A DNA stretch of 64,000 nt from Anaerocolumna sp. MB42-C2. Lineage in GTDB: Bacteria > Bacillota > Clostridia > Lachnospirales > Lachnospiraceae. Below, in pieces: positions 2,823 through 14,986 of the stretch. Position numbers and translations under genes: made by a program. The stretch lies in assembly GCF_030913705.1 (NCBI RefSeq), contig NZ_CP133190.1, positions 372,001 through 436,000 of the forward strand. The letters are read 5' to 3'. A model generated the notes under the pieces. It was not told the DNA's origin, did not search any database, and saw nothing but the letters and a program-made list of their open reading frames with translations. Numbering within the stretch: position 1 is the first letter of the stretch; every line of letters begins with the position of its first letter.

Positions 2823-4148
2823 TTAAATACAAAAAACTGCATAAATTGGAACATATTTTACATGATTGCAGTATTCAAAATTTCTAGTGGATATTTTAAT
2901 GGAATCTGATACCGATGTAAATTTACTGCGAAATATACTTACATTTCTGGAACGTGTCTGATCATTCGATCTGACTTCTATCGGTATGATTTTATTATCC
3001 TTTTTAATTATAAAATCAATTTTAGCCTGAGAATCAGATTCCCAGAAATATAGAGGATACCCTTGCGCAGTCAGACATTGAGCCACATAATTTTCTAAAA
3101 TCCCCGCCAAATACTGGTCTGAAATTTCAATGTATTGTTTCTTTAAAGCAGAGTATAAAATCCCTACGTCCAGCATATATAATTTAAAATTAAGATGCAG
3201 ATTCTTCTTATGAAATTGGATTGCTTCATCAAATGGATTAATAGTATCCTTGGTATTTAAACCCATAAGACTATCATCTCCCAGCTTATAACAGCCAATA
3301 CCATATCCGGTATCCTTTATGTATTGAAGTGCATCTGCATAGAAAGCCTGAGTTGCACCTTTACGAATTAATTTGTATTGGAACTTACGGTTATTTTTGA
3401 TAAGTTGCTTGTCAATGGTGTTAAATGTCTGACTTATCTTTAAGAATTCTCCTTCTGTATTGAACCGGTAACTATCCGATAAATAGGAGTTAACTATAAT
3501 TCTATGCTGCTCAGGTACATTAAAAGCAGAACCGGTATTGATATATTCATTTACAGCCATGGGCATTCCTCCTATTTGATAGTATAACTCAAATAAGGTA
3601 AGCAGTTCCTGATGAACAATATCAGGTATCTTTGTATCAGACGCAAAATGTACTGAAATTACTTCGATATACCATTCATTTCCGGTTGCAATCAGAAATT
3701 CTTCAAAATCCATAGGAAAAAGTTCAAGTTGATAAAACCCAGAATCAGTGAAAATTTGCTGTGATATATTACTGGTTATGGCAATAATATGATTCATATA
3801 TTCTGTTTTTAGGAATTTATAAATCATTATATTACTATCCGGGCATCTGGTTATTTCATCCAATATTACTAAAATAGGTGACGAAACCTCTGACAAATGA
3901 AAATAATCCCTCAAAACAGTCTCAATGGAGGGATTATTAAGAATTAATTCATAAAAGTGGGGGTCACTTTCAAAATTAATATAGATATATTCTGTATAAA
4001 AAGTTTTAGCAAAATCGTACACGAAATAAGTCTTACCAACACCACGGCCGCCGGTAAGCAAAATCGGCTTTTTATGAGTTTCTTCTTTCCATTCTAATAA
4101 TTTACTAAGCAGTTTTCTTTTCAAAGCTATACCCCTAAATATTCCCAT
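2823..4148 (-). CDS. AAA family ATPase with C-terminal DUF4143 domain
   Basis: A protein of the ATPase/DUF4143 family (COG1373-like), 441 residues, a typical length. The Walker A loop GGRGVGKT is at residues 33-40, and a Walker B-like ILVILDEITR follows near residue 90. The C-terminal part carries a nuclease-fold-like segment, YFWES then KIDFIIKKDNKIIPIEVRS. The family is common in anaerobes and has no settled function. The start is uncertain: the ATG at 4148 has a poor ribosome-binding site, whereas a TTG at codon 9 follows AGGGG and gives the common family start KRKLLSKLLEW. It stands alone between rluD and a palindromic element. Confidence 0.85.
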   Translation of the reverse strand: MGIFRGIALKRKLLSKLLEWKEETHKKPILLTGGRGVGKTYFVYDFAKTFYTEYIYINFESDPHFYELILNNPSIETVLRDYFHLSEVSSPILVILDEITRCPDSNIMIYKFLKTEYMNHIIAITSNISQQIFTDSGFYQLELFPMDFEEFLIATGNEWYIEVISVHFASDTKIPDIVHQELLTLFELYYQIGGMPMAVNEYINTGSAFNVPEQHRIIVNSYLSDSYRFNTEGEFLKISQTFNTIDKQLIKNNRKFQYKLIRKGATQAFYADALQYIKDTGYGIGCYKLGDDSLMGLNTKDTINPFDEAIQFHKKNLHLNFKLYMLDVGILYSALKKQYIEISDQYLAGILENYVAQCLTAQGYPLYFWESDSQAKIDFIIKKDNKIIPIEVRSNDQTRSRNVSIFRSKFTSVSDSIKISTRNFEYCNHVKYVPIYAVFCI

Positions 4149-4199
4149 CTTATAATAATACTTAAATAAAATATATAATTCGATTCAATGATAGTGTTA

Positions 4200-5120
4200 T
4201 TATTTTCTTAATTTTTCTAATAAGCTCATATAATAGTCCGGTAACGGAGCCTCAAATTCAATATAAGCTTTTGTAGTTGGATGTATAAAACCTAATACTC
4301 TCGCATGCAGCGCCTGACCTACCAAATGAAAACTATCCTTTGCAGGGCCATAAACAGTATCTCCCAATAAAGGATGTCCAATACTTGACATATGAACTCT
4401 GATTTGATGTGTCCTCCCTGTTTGTAAAGAACACTCAATGTGGGCATATCGATTAGAGAAGTTTTCCAATACTGTATAATTTGTTATAGCATTTTTTCCT
4501 TTTTTATTTATAGACATTTTTTTACGGTCAACCGGATGTCTGCCGATTGGTGCATCAATTGTACCTTTATCTGTTTTAAAAGAATTATATACAAGGGCAT
4601 TATACTTTCTTGTGATAGAATGAACCTTAAGCTGTTCTGCAATAAATTGGTGAGCTTTATCATTTTTACAGACTACAAGAACACCTGTAGTATCTCTGTC
4701 AATACGATGAACGATACCTGGCCTGTATACACCGTTAATTCCTGATAATTCTTCTTTACAATGATAAAGCAGACTGTTAACCAATGTACCGGAGTAATGA
4801 CCTGCTGCCGGATGTACCACCATACCTTTTTCTTTATTAACTACGATAATATCCTTATCCTCATATAAAATATCGATAGGTATATTCTCCGCATTAATCT
4901 GCAAATCAATCGGGGGCGGCACCTGAATAAGGATAGAATCTTCCGCAGTTACTTTATAATTTGCCTTGACCGTTTTATTATTAACCAATATCATTCCATC
5001 CTGAATCAATTTCTGAATGTATGATCTGGTCAGATCTTCTATGTTATCCGCAATATACTTATCGATTCTTATACCGCTCTCTTTGACATCTACAATTAAA
5101 TCGACAACCTCATTATTCAT
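4200..5120 (-). CDS. rluD: 23S rRNA pseudouridine synthase, RluD family
   Basis: A pseudouridine synthase of the RluA/RluD family (306 residues) that isomerises uridines in 23S rRNA. Residues 15-75 form an S4 RNA-binding domain (RIDKYIADN...YIQKLIQDG). The catalytic motif HRIDRDTTGVLVV places the catalytic aspartate at 141, and the later TGRTHQIRVH stretch is the other family signature. Its start overlaps the end of lspA by eight bases, so the two are translationally coupled, the usual lspA-rluD pairing in Firmicutes. The exact uridines modified cannot be told from sequence. Confidence 0.93.
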   Translation of the reverse strand: MNNEVVDLIVDVKESGIRIDKYIADNIEDLTRSYIQKLIQDGMILVNNKTVKANYKVTAEDSILIQVPPPIDLQINAENIPIDILYEDKDIIVVNKEKGMVVHPAAGHYSGTLVNSLLYHCKEELSGINGVYRPGIVHRIDRDTTGVLVVCKNDKAHQFIAEQLKVHSITRKYNALVYNSFKTDKGTIDAPIGRHPVDRKKMSINKKGKNAITNYTVLENFSNRYAHIECSLQTGRTHQIRVHMSSIGHPLLGDTVYGPAKDSFHLVGQALHARVLGFIHPTTKAYIEFEAPLPDYYMSLLEKLRK

Positions 5121-9972: not shown

Positions 9973-11358
9973 TCAATAAATAATTTTTTGTTCGACAGCT
10001 GTTCTTCCATCCAGTGCTATATGGTCATAAACTGACAAACCATATTCGGTGCCTTTTTTTATTATACAATATTCCTCATTTTCATATAAAACCTCAATAC
10101 GCCTGAAAACCGCATACCCTTTATTTACATTAAATACGCCCTCTAAAGTTTGTTTCTGACTTATGTTAAATTGCTTGTCTGTTTTCTCATTATGGATTCT
10201 ATCACCGGATTCGAATAGTCTTGCATCAATGTAACCATACTTTTCATCACGGTAATATATATCAGCCGGAACAAATACATAATCTACATCACCATTATCT
10301 TTGTAAGTTTCTTTTATTAAACCGTTACTTCCACTGTCTCCGCCAATGGTGAAGTATTCCAAAGGAATTTGATAAAACTCTTTTTCTACAATAGAAGAAA
10401 CCGGAATTTTAAGACCTTCTGCAGCATTTACTTCTATTTCAACATTGATAAATCTCTGATTAATATAACGAATCATAAATTTATCCAGATCCAGTTTTGC
10501 AAAATAATCAGTGCCTTTTTGGTAAACACTTATAGGTACCGTAGTTGACAAACCATCATCCGAAAAAATAATACGAACGGATTTCTTATCATTTAGTTTC
10601 TTGTATTGTTCTTTATCAAGCAATAATACAATACTCCAATTGTCATTTTTAACAATTTTGTAAACCGGCCTGCCCTTTTCAATCAGGTCCATAGTACGAA
10701 GCTGTGTCTTTTTATAAGAATCCGACTTAAAATTTTCTGCGGTTACGGAGTCAACGGCAAGGCCCTCCATACCATCTACACTATATGTAATTACGCCGCT
10801 TGTTTTTGATTTTACTACTTTAAATGTACTGCTTGTCCCATTATCTTTTAATACACTTTGCAACTTAGCCAGTTTACTGTTGTTTACGATTTCTAATACA
10901 GAATTTTCCATATTGTATTTAAAGTCATAAACGGACTTATAATTACTGTCCTCATAATTTTTTTGGAAACCGGTTATCTCATTCTTTAATTTAATGGTAT
11001 CTTCCGGAGATAAACTTACTGAATTTTCACTATTACCGATTAAGTCGTAGGAATCTTTATTTTCATCCACTGAATATATAGTTGAATTTTTTGATACTCT
11101 GTCACCATCTCCATGGTAATAGTTAATATATCCTGCTATACTTGTGTTAATAATTTCTTCATCACGAAAAATTATACCTGTATATAAACTATCATCAGAT
11201 GTTGATCCTTCTTTTACTTCGTAAATAGTTAAGTGGTCTTTTGTTAAGTATATAGATACACTTATTAAAACATAGACAAATATAATTAGGAATACCAAAA
11301 AACCAATGTTAATACTTTTGCGTTTCCGATATCTGGCGATTTTTTTACCCGAACTCAA
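9973..11358 (-). CDS. HlyD-like membrane-anchored protein of unknown role
   Basis: A 461-residue protein with one membrane span at about residues 18-38 after a basic N-terminus (KKIARYRKRK), then a large outside domain that resembles membrane-fusion (HlyD) adaptors: a lipoyl-like half (GYINYYHGDGDRVSKNSTIYSV), a helical hairpin, then a beta domain. A longer frame opens at 11409, but the TTG at 11358 sits seven bases after AAGGAGG, so I take that as the start. No ABC or RND partner is nearby, so a transport role is not supported; genes of this kind next to yggS/sepF suggest a link to the cell envelope or division. Function unknown. Confidence 0.7.
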   Translation of the reverse strand: MSSGKKIARYRKRKSINIGFLVFLIIFVYVLISVSIYLTKDHLTIYEVKEGSTSDDSLYTGIIFRDEEIINTSIAGYINYYHGDGDRVSKNSTIYSVDENKDSYDLIGNSENSVSLSPEDTIKLKNEITGFQKNYEDSNYKSVYDFKYNMENSVLEIVNNSKLAKLQSVLKDNGTSSTFKVVKSKTSGVITYSVDGMEGLAVDSVTAENFKSDSYKKTQLRTMDLIEKGRPVYKIVKNDNWSIVLLLDKEQYKKLNDKKSVRIIFSDDGLSTTVPISVYQKGTDYFAKLDLDKFMIRYINQRFINVEIEVNAAEGLKIPVSSIVEKEFYQIPLEYFTIGGDSGSNGLIKETYKDNGDVDYVFVPADIYYRDEKYGYIDARLFESGDRIHNEKTDKQFNISQKQTLEGVFNVNKGYAVFRRIEVLYENEEYCIIKKGTEYGLSVYDHIALDGRTAVEQKIIY

Positions 11359-11691
11359 ATAAATATCCTCCTTGCCATTTCCTAATATTATAGAAAAACA
11401 TATTCCCATAATAAGAATGTACGGCGCAAATACAGCGCCTTTTATCAGAAATTAAAAGGCAATTTCTGATAAGTTATACTATAGGAATAAAAATACATTC
11501 CTATAGTCGGATGTACGGCGCAAATACAGCGCCTTTTATCAGAAATTAAAAGGCAATTTCTGATAAGTTATATTATACTTTTATTTATCAAATAATTAAA
11601 GCCCTAAATGTACTTTTTTACAAATTCTCATTAGGAATATTAAGCATAAAAATGGTAACAATAATTAATGCAACAAAAAGGAGGTAATCAA
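11359..11691. other. Divergent intergenic region holding the repeat pair
   Basis: Apart from the palindromic repeats at 11417-11572 it holds only AT-rich DNA upstream of the DUF378 gene. No convincing promoter of standard form was found for either divergent gene. Confidence 0.5.
11417..11572 (+). repeat. Pair of identical 62-base palindromic repeats flanking a third hairpin
   Basis: The 62 bases at 11417-11478 are repeated without change at 11511-11572. Each copy holds two hairpins: GGCGC/GCGCC, then TTATCAGAAATT/AATTTCTGATAA (12-bp perfect arms). Between the copies is a third hairpin, CTATAGGAAT/ATTCCTATAG (11479-11506). Related copies occur at 60801-60894 (opposite strand) and, worn, at 28309-28372, so this is a dispersed family. 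It lies in the divergent space between the HlyD-like gene and the DUF378 gene. Confidence 0.85.
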
Positions 11692-12219: not shown

Positions 12220-12888
12220 TTATTTATAAATACCATAAGCTTTATTTACATCCTGAACATAAATAATTCCTTTCCCAGGTTCATCTATCTTTAAATCTTC
12301 CCGAATACCGGTTACTATAGCTTCAGTCGCAGCTACTTCTGCAAGAATAATCACAATTTCTTTCTCAGGTTCAATATCCATAGAAAACAATTTACTGGTT
12401 TCATGAATTCCAGACCCTCTTCCGTTAACTATGGTTCCTCCCTTCGAACCTGACTTTACTGCTGCTTCTATAACATCCTCAGCTTTGCCTTTCTCAACAA
12501 TTATAGTTATTACCTGATACATCGTATTTTCTTCACCTCTTTCCAGTTTCACATTATCGCATTTACACATCCTGATTCCCATTGTGGCACTAATGGATGT
12601 TGTAAAGGCAATACCATGATTCGGTTTGTTTAACTTATATTCCGTATTTATTTTATCTAACACTTGGTCTGCTGCGTCCTTATTAGCAACCATATATAAG
12701 ATTTCTTTTCTTTCATCTGAAAGGCCCAAATAATCCCATACTCGGTTGTTTGCGGTACCTCTTGCCAACGTTATGGTTCCGCCGCAAATTCCATATTTTT
12801 TGGCAGACCTTAATATTTTGCTTCCCATACCGAAATTAGCGATAACACTAATAAGTTCAAAATCCCAAGCTTCCGTTTTAATTTCCAT
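12220..12888 (-). CDS. Tandem PII-like (GlnB-fold) regulator paired with DUF1538
   Basis: A 222-residue protein made of two PII-like domains. Domain 1 covers about residues 8-102 (LISVIANFGMGSKILRSAKKYGICGGTITLARG), domain 2 about 123-215 (YQVITIIVEKGKAEDVIEAAVKSGSKGGTIVNGRG), joined by a linker with CKCDN. Each has the GGTI-x-x-x-RG pattern of the PII nucleotide-binding region. True PII proteins sense ADP/ATP and 2-oxoglutarate and plug transporters; here the partner would be the overlapping DUF1538 membrane protein. I use the ATG at 12888; a TTG at 12897 is too close to the GGAGG. No PII uridylylation Tyr motif is evident. Role is inferred. Confidence 0.75.
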   Translation of the reverse strand: MEIKTEAWDFELISVIANFGMGSKILRSAKKYGICGGTITLARGTANNRVWDYLGLSDERKEILYMVANKDAADQVLDKINTEYKLNKPNHGIAFTTSISATMGIRMCKCDNVKLERGEENTMYQVITIIVEKGKAEDVIEAAVKSGSKGGTIVNGRGSGIHETSKLFSMDIEPEKEIVIILAEVAATEAIVTGIREDLKIDEPGKGIIYVQDVNKAYGIYK

Positions 12889-14368
12889 TATTATCAAGCC
12901 CTCCTTTCCTGGATTTAATCTTAAAAATCAATCCTAATATTTGCAACGCTATTAGTGGTGTCATAGCAACCATAGCAATTACTCCAAAACCATCCACCAG
13001 CACATTTGCTCCCTCTACTGCTTCTGCAGCACCTTGCGTATATGCCAATATAAACGTAGCCGTCATAGGACCTGATGCAACCCCACCGGAATCAAATGCA
13101 ATACCTACGAAAAGTTTAGGTGCTAAATAACTTAATGCTATGGATATTATATAGCCTGGCAGAAGATATTGCCATAACTGCAACTCCGGAATAAGGATAC
13201 GTATAACAGATAATGCAATAGCTATGCCGACACCAATTGCCAATGCAAACATAACAACACCTCTTTTTACATATCCACTGGTAACATCCTCTATTTGATG
13301 AGTTAATACATATACAGCCGGTTCTGCAAGTATTATGACAACTCCTAATATAAAACCAACAAGAATAACATACATCCTATTATCTAAAGACGCTATGCTA
13401 TATCCGATAGCACTCCCGACCTGCATAAACCCTGCATTTACGCCGACCAAGAATATTACCAGTCCTGTAAATGTAAACAGTACTCCAAATAGAATCTTTC
13501 TCACCTCTCTCTTAGAAAGTTTAAAAGAAATTTTTTGGGCTGCAAGAAATAATGCCAAAATAGGAAGCAATGCTACGATTACTTCTGGTACTGCTTTAAA
13601 AAATTCATGAACAAAGGGTAAAATAATGGAATTCGATAGACTTTCCGTTTCAAGCACGCCCGTAATTTTATCCGTTTTTGATATTATACTCATAATCATA
13701 ACCGATAAAATAGCGCCTGTTGATGCAATGGCTACTAATCCAAAACTGTCCTTCTCTGATGCTTTGCTATCCTTTTTCAATTTCGATACACCGATTGCCA
13801 GTGCCAGAATAAAAGGTACTGTCAGCGCTCCGGTTGTTGCACCCGAGGCATCAAATGATATTGCCAGAAATTCACGTGAAGTAATGCAGGCAAATATAAA
13901 AACAATTCCATAAATTAATGATAATAGTTTATACAACGGAAAATTGTAAACAATTCTGCCAAGACCTATTGAAAGCATAATTGCTATACCAATAGATACT
14001 ATCACTACAATACTTTCTTTTGATATTAACCCTGACGAAACAGTATCAACCTGTCCGGCTAAAATATGAAGATCCGGCTCCGCGACCGATATAAAAAAGC
14101 CAAGTATCAGGCCCGCAATTATAACAAACCACAGCTTATTGGTCTTAGCAAGCGCTCCCCCCATATTATTTCCAATTGGAGTAATTCCGATATCTACTCC
14201 GATCAGAAATATCGTTAGTCCGATTATTAGTAATACCGCCCCTATTAAAAATCTTATTAAAATAGGTGTCTCAAGAGGTGTTAGTGTGAAATTAAGTATT
14301 AATACAATTATTGTGATGGGAATAACGGATAACAAGACTTCTTTAAACTTAGTAATTATTACATTCAA
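12878..14368 (-). CDS. DUF1538 family membrane protein, duplicated
   Basis: A 496-residue polytopic membrane protein with about 12 or more hydrophobic segments. It is built of two related halves: both carry the pattern FLIGVDIG.../FLVGVNAG..., an acidic AEPDLHIL / AEPAVYVL, and a loop SFDASGATTGALTVPFILA / AFDSGGVASGPMTATFILA. This is the DUF1538 duplication. The two-fold repeat and small-residue loops look like a transporter, but no substrate is known. The start is a TTG at 14368 after AAAGGATGG. Its last codons overlap the start of the tandem-PII gene, which therefore has its ribosome-binding site inside this gene, a sign of coupled expression. Confidence 0.8.
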   Translation of the reverse strand: MNVIITKFKEVLLSVIPITIIVLILNFTLTPLETPILIRFLIGAVLLIIGLTIFLIGVDIGITPIGNNMGGALAKTNKLWFVIIAGLILGFFISVAEPDLHILAGQVDTVSSGLISKESIVVIVSIGIAIMLSIGLGRIVYNFPLYKLLSLIYGIVFIFACITSREFLAISFDASGATTGALTVPFILALAIGVSKLKKDSKASEKDSFGLVAIASTGAILSVMIMSIISKTDKITGVLETESLSNSIILPFVHEFFKAVPEVIVALLPILALFLAAQKISFKLSKREVRKILFGVLFTFTGLVIFLVGVNAGFMQVGSAIGYSIASLDNRMYVILVGFILGVVIILAEPAVYVLTHQIEDVTSGYVKRGVVMFALAIGVGIAIALSVIRILIPELQLWQYLLPGYIISIALSYLAPKLFVGIAFDSGGVASGPMTATFILAYTQGAAEAVEGANVLVDGFGVIAMVAMTPLIALQILGLIFKIKSRKGGLDNNGN

Positions 14369-14437: not shown

Positions 14438-14680
14438 TTATGTCTGACTTATTTTCTGATATAGCTGCTGATGAGATGATGTTTTTTCAATTGCGTACAT
14501 ATAACATTTACCTTGTTGAACATAATTTAAAAACAAGGTTCCTAATAAGAGTCTGTCTTTTACTGCAATCCTGTTCCAAACATACCCCTTAAACAAATCT
14601 TTCAATAAAAATATTTCTCCATCCATTAAATTATCAGTTTCACTTATAGCTTCTTCTAATAAATCATTTACATTAGACAT
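14438..14680 (-). CDS. DUF1413 domain-like small protein
   Basis: An 80-residue protein with LLEEAISETDNLMDGE, then FLLKDLFKGYVWNRI and KDRLLLGTLFLNYV, which fit the short DUF1413-type domain seen in single-gene and toxin/antitoxin-like contexts. The frame opens at 14713, but ATG 14680 follows AAAGGAG by eight bases and gives a normal start. No partner gene is visible; it lies between the DUF1538 gene and a P-loop gene. Function unknown. Confidence 0.6.
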   Translation of the reverse strand: MSNVNDLLEEAISETDNLMDGEIFLLKDLFKGYVWNRIAVKDRLLLGTLFLNYVQQGKCYMYAIEKTSSHQQLYQKISQT

Positions 14681-14986
14681 GCGAGTACTCCTTTTAACAT
14701 CATTGTTATGCACATTGTTAATACCATTGTAAATATTTTTATTTAAAATGTCAACTTTTACCCATAATTTATTCCTAAATATTAAATATCTTATGAACTG
14801 ATAAATAAAAATTGAAATCCAATGCTGGTTAAAGCAGATTCACACACAGCATAGAAAAACAATAAAAAAATGAAAAATGGAATAAGAAAAAAGCGGCACT
14901 AATGTGCCGCAGCTGTTTAAAACTAAACTTAAGGTAATTAAGATTTAAATTCTTAATTTTTCATTAAGGTTCATATTAATATTTAT
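14681..14986. other. Gene-free stretch
   Basis: About 300 AT-rich bases with the terminator at 14895-14913 and otherwise nothing I recognise. Confidence 0.5.
14895..14913 (-). terminator. Rho-independent terminator of the P-loop gene
   Basis: On the minus strand GCGGCAC pairs with GTGCCGC around a four-base loop and is followed by TTTTTTC. It lies about 75 bases past the stop of the gene at 14987. Confidence 0.75.

Follow-up and report, generated by a model that had tools for sequence, protein, structure and literature searches.

Pairs of a PII protein and a membrane transporter are a known kind of system, represented by GlnK-AmtB, SbtB-SbtA, and PII-NG beside CzcABC. Here we describe a pair of overlapping genes, encoding a DUF1538 membrane protein and a tandem PII-like protein, in a 64,000-nucleotide (nt) stretch of the genome of Anaerocolumna sp. 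MB42-C2 (contig NZ_CP133190.1, positions 372,001 to 436,000; this whole stretch is hereafter the window, numbered from its first letter). Judging from sequence, we read the pair, with a probability of roughly 0.6, as a PII-gated monovalent cation/proton antiporter of the UmpAB type that responds to a non-canonical effector. In the titles and abstract openings of the open-access literature, subscription papers lying outside this scope, no description of a DUF1538-PII pair was found. The new elements are the near-obligate PII partner of DUF1538, its covalent fusion to the transporter, the repeated duplication of PII, and the putative inverted or dual topology of the membrane protein.

GlnK-AmtB resembles the window pair in that a PII gene is linked to a membrane transporter gene and the regulator is cytosolic. 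However, the transporter of the window is DUF1538 rather than Amt, and its PII is a tandem protein without the GDGK B-loop, the RxRTGE C-loop, and the full-length T-loop. These are canonical motifs of GlnB/GlnK and provide the contacts to ATP and 2-oxoglutarate. Because the signatures are absent and the T-loop is short, the GlnK analogy is not transferable in detail. SbtB-SbtA likewise combines a PII-like protein with a dedicated secondary transporter, whereas SbtA belongs to another transporter family and is trimeric according to the accessible portions of its literature, and the two halves of the window protein probably form an inverted pseudo-dimer. In the available text of PMC7726332, PII-NG is a clade derived from GlnB/GlnK that clusters with a proton/cation antiporter, as in our reading of the window pair, but CzcABC is an RND pump for divalent metals. 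In general, PII-transporter pairs are recognized by adjacent and co-occurring genes, and both properties were found for DUF1538 and PII.

The DUF1538 family itself is represented by UmpAB. According to the available text of PMC5484666, UmpA and UmpB of Halomonas zhaodongensis, when co-expressed, confer salt and alkali tolerance on Escherichia coli KNabc, where they show Na+(Li+,K+)/H+ antiport and behave as a hetero-dimer; the view of the earlier note that the substrate was wholly unknown is thus out of date. The clone comprised 4.2 kb with open reading frames 1-4, none of which is described as PII in that text, and the words "PII" and "P-II" occur 0 times in the paper (PMC5484666). Unit A has its counterpart in half 1 of the window protein and unit B in half 2: on the NCBIfam models of the NF041627/NF041628 pair, the window protein scored 163.5 bits for UmpA, with the best stretch at residues 4-229 (half 1), and 133.6 bits for UmpB, with the best stretch at residues 260-476 (half 2). 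Separate DUF1538 gene pairs of this kind also adjoin PII in Methylocystis and others. In contrast to UmpAB, the window protein is a single chain, its scores are well short of the equivalog cut-offs (490 and 500 bits), and the UmpAB paper is silent on PII (PMC5484666). These scores mark the window protein as a natural fusion of a UmpA-like and a UmpB-like unit, with no assigned orthology to UmpAB.

Both genes lie on the minus strand. The membrane protein (12878..14368; 496 amino acids, TTG start) matched Pfam PF07556 with 453 bits (E = 1.3e-136, cut-off 22.6) in two stretches, and DUF1538 was the sole Pfam family in this partner of PII, which is neither Amt nor SbtA. Its half 1 (13682..14317; 233.5 bits) is UmpA-like with a putative N-terminus-in orientation, and its half 2 (12926..13561; 232.1 bits) is UmpB-like with a putative inverted, C-terminus-in orientation; the halves are 27% identical to each other (65 of 238 aligned positions). 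The PII-like protein (12220..12897) has 225 amino acids when read from TTG 12897, with ATG 12888 also possible as a start, and matched PF00543 with 62.6 bits (E = 4.7e-17, cut-off 25), again in two stretches. PII domain 1 (12571..12855; 28 bits) is of the N-type with a diverged T-loop region, and PII domain 2 (12229..12513; 39.5 bits) is of the C-type, carries RGSGIHE/EPEKE, and is nearest to single-domain partners. All domain positions are genome-level Pfam matches converted to window coordinates. The internal duplication of both proteins, as claimed by the earlier note, is confirmed by these matches, and so is the overlap of their frames, which spans 11 nt with the ATG start (12878..12888) and 20 nt with the TTG start. 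A GGAGG sequence lies inside the DUF1538 frame, 11 nt upstream of the PII ATG 12888. Over the loci surveyed, 168 of 287 DUF1538-PII junctions overlapped when the PII frame was taken to start at its first ATG, the junctions not being de-duplicated.

The pairing was followed across 290 non-redundant DUF1538 loci, drawn from a class sample (84), a phylum sample (84), a genome scan (78 of the best 80 of at least 554 relatives), a Mobiluncus sample (13), a Spirochaetales metagenome-assembled genome (MAG) sample (28), and plasmids (3). This set is non-random: positive genomes were read in part, some genomes give two loci, and own-genome copies of the window locus and duplicate loci were dropped. DUF1538 matches were found in 102 of 291 genomes of the class sample and 101 of 299 genomes of the phylum sample, the window's own genome included, as well as in 14 of 198 genomes around the Mobiluncus genome and 41 of 198 around the Spirochaetales MAG. 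A PII gene lay beside DUF1538 in 284 of the 290 loci and in 284 of the 285 readable ones, a locus being readable by definition when PII is present, or when at least 600 nt of downstream sequence is available if PII is absent. PII was on the same strand in all 284 loci, at most 500 nt from the DUF1538 domain in 283 and 646 nt away in the other. Five of the six loci without PII have less than 190 nt of downstream sequence, and one (L227) is a true exception. The hidden Markov models (HMMs) used to count PII and DUF domains were built from a subset of the loci to which they were applied, and the proteobacterial evidence consists of two alphaproteobacterial plasmid loci and a near-identical Methylocystis record known as a match row only.

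The reverse test applied a tandem-PII model to 40 genomes taken in listing order, a non-random choice. The PII subtype scored at least 123 bits in 20 of 20 DUF1538-positive genomes, while among the 20 DUF1538-negative genomes 17 gave no match and three gave 23-26 bits, so that strong matches occurred in 0 of 20. All 22 places scoring at least 70 bits adjoin a DUF1538 match; one 55-bit place does not. No third recurrent gene was found at DUF1538-PII loci, the two largest other clusters occurring in 14 of 151 loci each and at mixed positions. The pairing is close to obligate, and its repetition in 284 of 285 readable loci indicates that the window pair is not a chance arrangement. The earlier note would have counted its proposal as refuted if either gene were often found without its partner; neither the loci (284/285) nor the genomes (20/20 versus 0/20) show such separation.

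The layouts of the 290 loci were diverse. The arrangement of the window, DUF1538x2 with PIIx2, accounted for 177, followed by DUF1538 + PII (18), DUF1538 + DUF1538 + PII (18), DUF1538 + DUF1538 + PIIx2 (15), DUF1538x2 + PII + PII (10), four separate genes (7), and chains of three PII (2), the remainder being rarer or cut. In this count L301 is mis-sorted, being really DUF1538x2 followed by PIIx2, and contig ends truncate the solitary DUF1538 of L009 and several of the DUF1538 + PIIx2 entries. Single, split, and fused layouts, as well as those with up to three PII (e.g., L109), all retain PII beside DUF1538. In 18 loci the DUF1538x2 chain continues at its C-terminus into a PII domain; 16 of these also carry a tandem PII gene upstream, and the other two begin near the contig start. 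The PII of one fusion (L034) and the three PII of L326 were missed by Pfam and rest on the window PII domains and our own HMM.

Trees were built with FastTree and midpoint-rooted, leaving out every locus whose DUF domains were not two full ones or whose HMM hits were split. In the DUF1538 tree (245 loci), the fusion of the halves needs one change. The 18 DUF1538-PII fusions made up 18 of the 19 tips of one clade (support 0.999), and the lone non-fusion in it (L116) runs off its contig end. In the PII tree, whose alignment spans about 100 residues, the split-gene lineage had its N, C, and single domains in one cluster (57 tips, support 0.946; 13 of 14 N domains, one lying outside). The fused lineage instead formed an N-type clade (172 of 184, support 0.921; the other 12 outside) and a C-type clade (182 of 184, support 0.934). 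Deeper nodes were weak, with a support of 0.0 where the C-type clade joins that of the split lineage. Because the PII domains of the split lineage cluster apart from the N and C clades of the fused lineage, two or more separate origins of the tandem PII are most likely. Unless DUF1538 and PII work together, it would be hard to account for such covalent fusion and repeated re-wiring. The natural fusions and the pairing in 284 of 285 loci also lend support to the idea of the earlier note that the membrane protein has a dedicated PII-type regulator.

Several loci depart further from the common layouts. In L055 (5484-7001), two tandem-PII genes stand in a row behind one DUF1538x2 gene, giving four PII domains per transporter. 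L321 and L326, from the Spirochaetales MAG sample, encode larger DUF1538x2 proteins (636-712 amino acids) with added sequence, paired with three-PII proteins whose domains have diverged, one of them being weak in L321. The split DUF1538-DUF1538-PII module was found on a mobilizable plasmid of Methylocystis and a conjugative plasmid of Chelativorans (L133 and L134), and in this form is probably transferable from one genome to another; for Chelativorans, the annotation gives the first DUF1538 gene a length of 273 nt only.

The AlphaFold2 model of the DUF1538 protein (pLDDT 93.7, pTM 0.91) supplied the helix limits for counting loop charges. Positive charge alternated loop by loop, and its sign reversed between the DUF1538 halves. 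The two loop sets are alternating loops that were picked after viewing the loop table; among all 70 partitions, this one also performed best. Loci left out of the trees were left out here too, as were two edge-cut solitary DUF1538 loci. The K+R bias between these sets was +5 for half 1 and -8 for half 2 of the window protein. Across relatives, it averaged +6.34 for half 1 (+3 or more in 206 of 209) and -6.70 for half 2 (-3 or less in 205 of 209). Halves 1 and 2 of the fused proteins group with the first and second genes of split pairs, respectively, and separate DUF1538 genes had the same signs as the halves, with first genes beyond 3 in 27 of 37 cases and second genes in 33 of 37. By contrast with these biases, the 17 solitary DUF1538 proteins, which form a clade of their own (support 1.0), averaged +0.88, with an absolute bias of at most 2 in 14.

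Given the sign flip between the halves, the number of membrane crossings per DUF1538 unit is probably odd, which would make the window protein an antiparallel pseudo-dimer of oppositely oriented halves. The solitary proteins may insert in both orientations, although a bias of +3 or +4 counts against such dual topology for three of the 17. The C-terminus of half 2 is rich in K/R (mean 4.05), which would place a fused PII on the cytosolic side. SMR and Fluc are small dual-topology transporters that passed from a solitary subunit with near-zero bias through an oppositely biased pair to a fusion. This path matches the charge pattern of DUF1538, but SMR and Fluc are other proteins with smaller units and have no PII partner of such kind. 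Both halves of the window protein keep E97/E349 (each followed by P), D173/D426, R or K at 138/390, and a T/S-G motif (TG/SG), and the same set is present in the Methylocystis pair and in solitary DUF1538 members. Such repeated acidic sites are as would be expected for a cation/proton exchanger.

The PII-like protein was modelled by AlphaFold2 as two similar alpha/beta domains (pLDDT 87.4). Foldseek matched the tandem model to GlnK1 (2j9d, E = 1.2e-6), and VIA-align gave the C-domain Z scores of about 9 to both canonical PII (1hwu, Z 9.5, rmsd 2.1, 84 aligned) and SbtB (6mmq, Z 8.8, rmsd 2.3, 81 aligned), so that SbtB structures match it about as well as canonical PII; these matches cover chiefly the C-domain (residues 124-225) and barely the N-domain. 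A resemblance of the tandem protein to RND porter domains (5enp, Z 9.6, rmsd 4.6, 157 aligned) was rejected as a sign of kinship and read as two consecutive ferredoxin-like domains. A model of single-domain partners scored C-type domains at a median of 107.7 bits and N-type domains at 77.5. The C-domain is thus nearer to the single-domain partners, and the N-domain has drifted, perhaps toward a structural role.

The DUF1538-linked PII family was compared in an alignment with three canonical PII proteins encoded by the genome of the window, which holds several canonical PII genes in addition to the window gene. In this alignment, PGxGI or PNHGI (PNHGI/PGKGI) replaces the GDGK of the canonical B-loop, the C-terminal RxRTGE of the C-loop is absent, and the T-loop is about 6 residues shorter than in canonical PII; in C-type and single domains, this short T-loop carries the motif RGxGxHE...EPEKE. 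The glycine-rich loops RGxG and PGxGI are strongly conserved. Since the canonical ATP/2-oxoglutarate signatures are lacking, the label "nitrogen regulator" is probably a misnomer for DUF1538-linked PII. Elsewhere in the same genome, a 586-amino-acid frame (L138, G000:C1:1070030-1070344) ends in a canonical PII domain and is probably an ammonium transporter-PII fusion, the Amt part being a guess.

The duplications, overlap, pairing, fusion, PII re-duplication, charge bias, acidic residues, and ligand-signature loss can all be read in the sequences. From them we infer a physical complex, gating, and a non-canonical effector, and from UmpAB a monovalent cation/H+ substrate. In this mechanism, the DUF1538 halves, fused head to tail, would form an antiparallel pseudo-dimer that acts as a monovalent cation/proton antiporter of the UmpAB type. 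Its own PII-like regulator would dock on the cytosolic face, and effector binding to PII would switch the antiporter on or off, tying cation and pH balance to the state of the cell. The effector would be another adenine nucleotide, a second messenger, or an ion, rather than ATP and 2-oxoglutarate in the canonical way. In the available text of a machine-learning study (PMC13255231), DUF1538 is one of the 20 Pfam features ranked highest for growth pH, together with MnhB, MrpF, KdpA, and TrkH, which agrees with cation/proton antiport.

Several points weigh against this PII-gated antiporter. By equivalog scores, UmpAB is a distant relative of the window protein. Its activity from a PII-less clone suggests that any PII of its own is dispensable for activity. 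Furthermore, UmpAB was found through a salt-tolerance screen, and papers mentioning it report, in the text available, antiport for other, unrelated families, so that Na+/H+ antiport may not be its main role. The number of PII domains per locus varies (1, 2, 3, or more), and no stoichiometry follows. No PII was found on the entire 13.8-kb contig of L227. Lastly, no solved relative of the DUF1538 protein was found by sequence, and none was clear from the model of the whole protein in Foldseek (best E = 9e-3, TM < 0.2) or VIA-align (Z < 5; e.g., NCX_Mj, Z 4.7, rmsd 5.8, 191 aligned); we claim neither a new fold nor membership in a known one.

The chief doubt concerns the substrate, because a single distant DUF1538 pair has been assayed in the literature found, and that after a salt-tolerance screen. 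The membrane protein might move another ion or solute, with the antiport of UmpAB as a side activity revealed by the screen and PII still acting as a gate. We consider this unlikely but worth keeping in view. It would fit the scores of the window protein, far under the UmpA/UmpB equivalog cut-offs, and the presence of DUF1538 in about one third of the sampled class and phylum genomes, which makes a halophile-specific role unlikely. It would also fit the Rfam scans, which gave no riboswitch match in the window and no Na+, Li+, or other riboswitch directly upstream on the strand of the pair in 45 of the 80 genome-scan loci; a c-di-AMP riboswitch at L088 was rejected as a clue to the substrate since it lies on the opposite strand. 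On the other hand, the growth-pH ranking (PMC13255231, available text) and the membrane acidic residues retained in both halves speak for cation/proton exchange.

It is improbable that PII serves as a structural or assembly subunit without ligand sensing. The absence of canonical ligand signatures and a near-obligate pairing like that of a subunit would agree with such a role, but the RGxG and PGxGI loops are strongly conserved, as expected of a ligand pocket, and the activity of UmpA and UmpB in E. coli came from a clone for which the available text gives no PII among the open reading frames (PMC5484666). It is very improbable that the main task of the membrane protein is to sense or to anchor PII, which would act elsewhere once released: AmtB does sequester GlnK at the membrane in an established precedent, and PII is a separate protein in 266 of 284 loci, yet in 18 loci PII is fused to the transporter and cannot leave (16 of them also having a separate tandem PII), and no other conserved gene partner was found for the PII subtype.

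If the PII-gated antiporter holds, a broader picture may be sketched, which we put forward tentatively and at somewhat less than even odds. The window pair would belong to a widespread class of sensor-gated ion exchangers that passed from a dual-topology homodimer with one PII, through a heterodimer, to a fused antiparallel pseudo-dimer, with PII duplicated independently and welded to the transporter in one lineage. Its PII subfamily would have left nitrogen signalling and would adjust monovalent cation/proton exchange to another signal, such as c-di-AMP, an adenylate, or an ion. For many anaerobes, this would give cation and pH balance a level of control that can be tested, and the natural DUF1538-PII fusions make the complex easy to study. 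PII may also be a partner still missing from the picture of UmpAB, whose antiport was assayed from a PII-less clone. Our results further suggest that many of the genes annotated as "P-II family nitrogen regulator" have no such regulatory role in nitrogen metabolism.

Next to the pair in the window lie a HlyD/TIGR02828-type membrane fusion protein (9973-11409), which is under the NCBIfam cut-off, and a DUF1413 protein (14438-14713); as far as the clustering shows, neither is among the most frequent neighbours at the loci of relatives. The single 55-bit place of the reverse test that does not adjoin DUF1538 (G019:C13) was rejected as a member of the subtype: its two genes encode another kind of PII-like protein and adjoin a frame resembling ZIP transporters. 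At this locus (L328), two adjacent genes (2953-3780 and 3860-4606) carry GATIMDSIGAGQ in one and a variant of it in the second. They stand directly upstream of the membrane-protein frame, which contains HNFPEGLA, a motif that we take to mark a ZIP metal transporter, and they form another possible PII-transporter pair.

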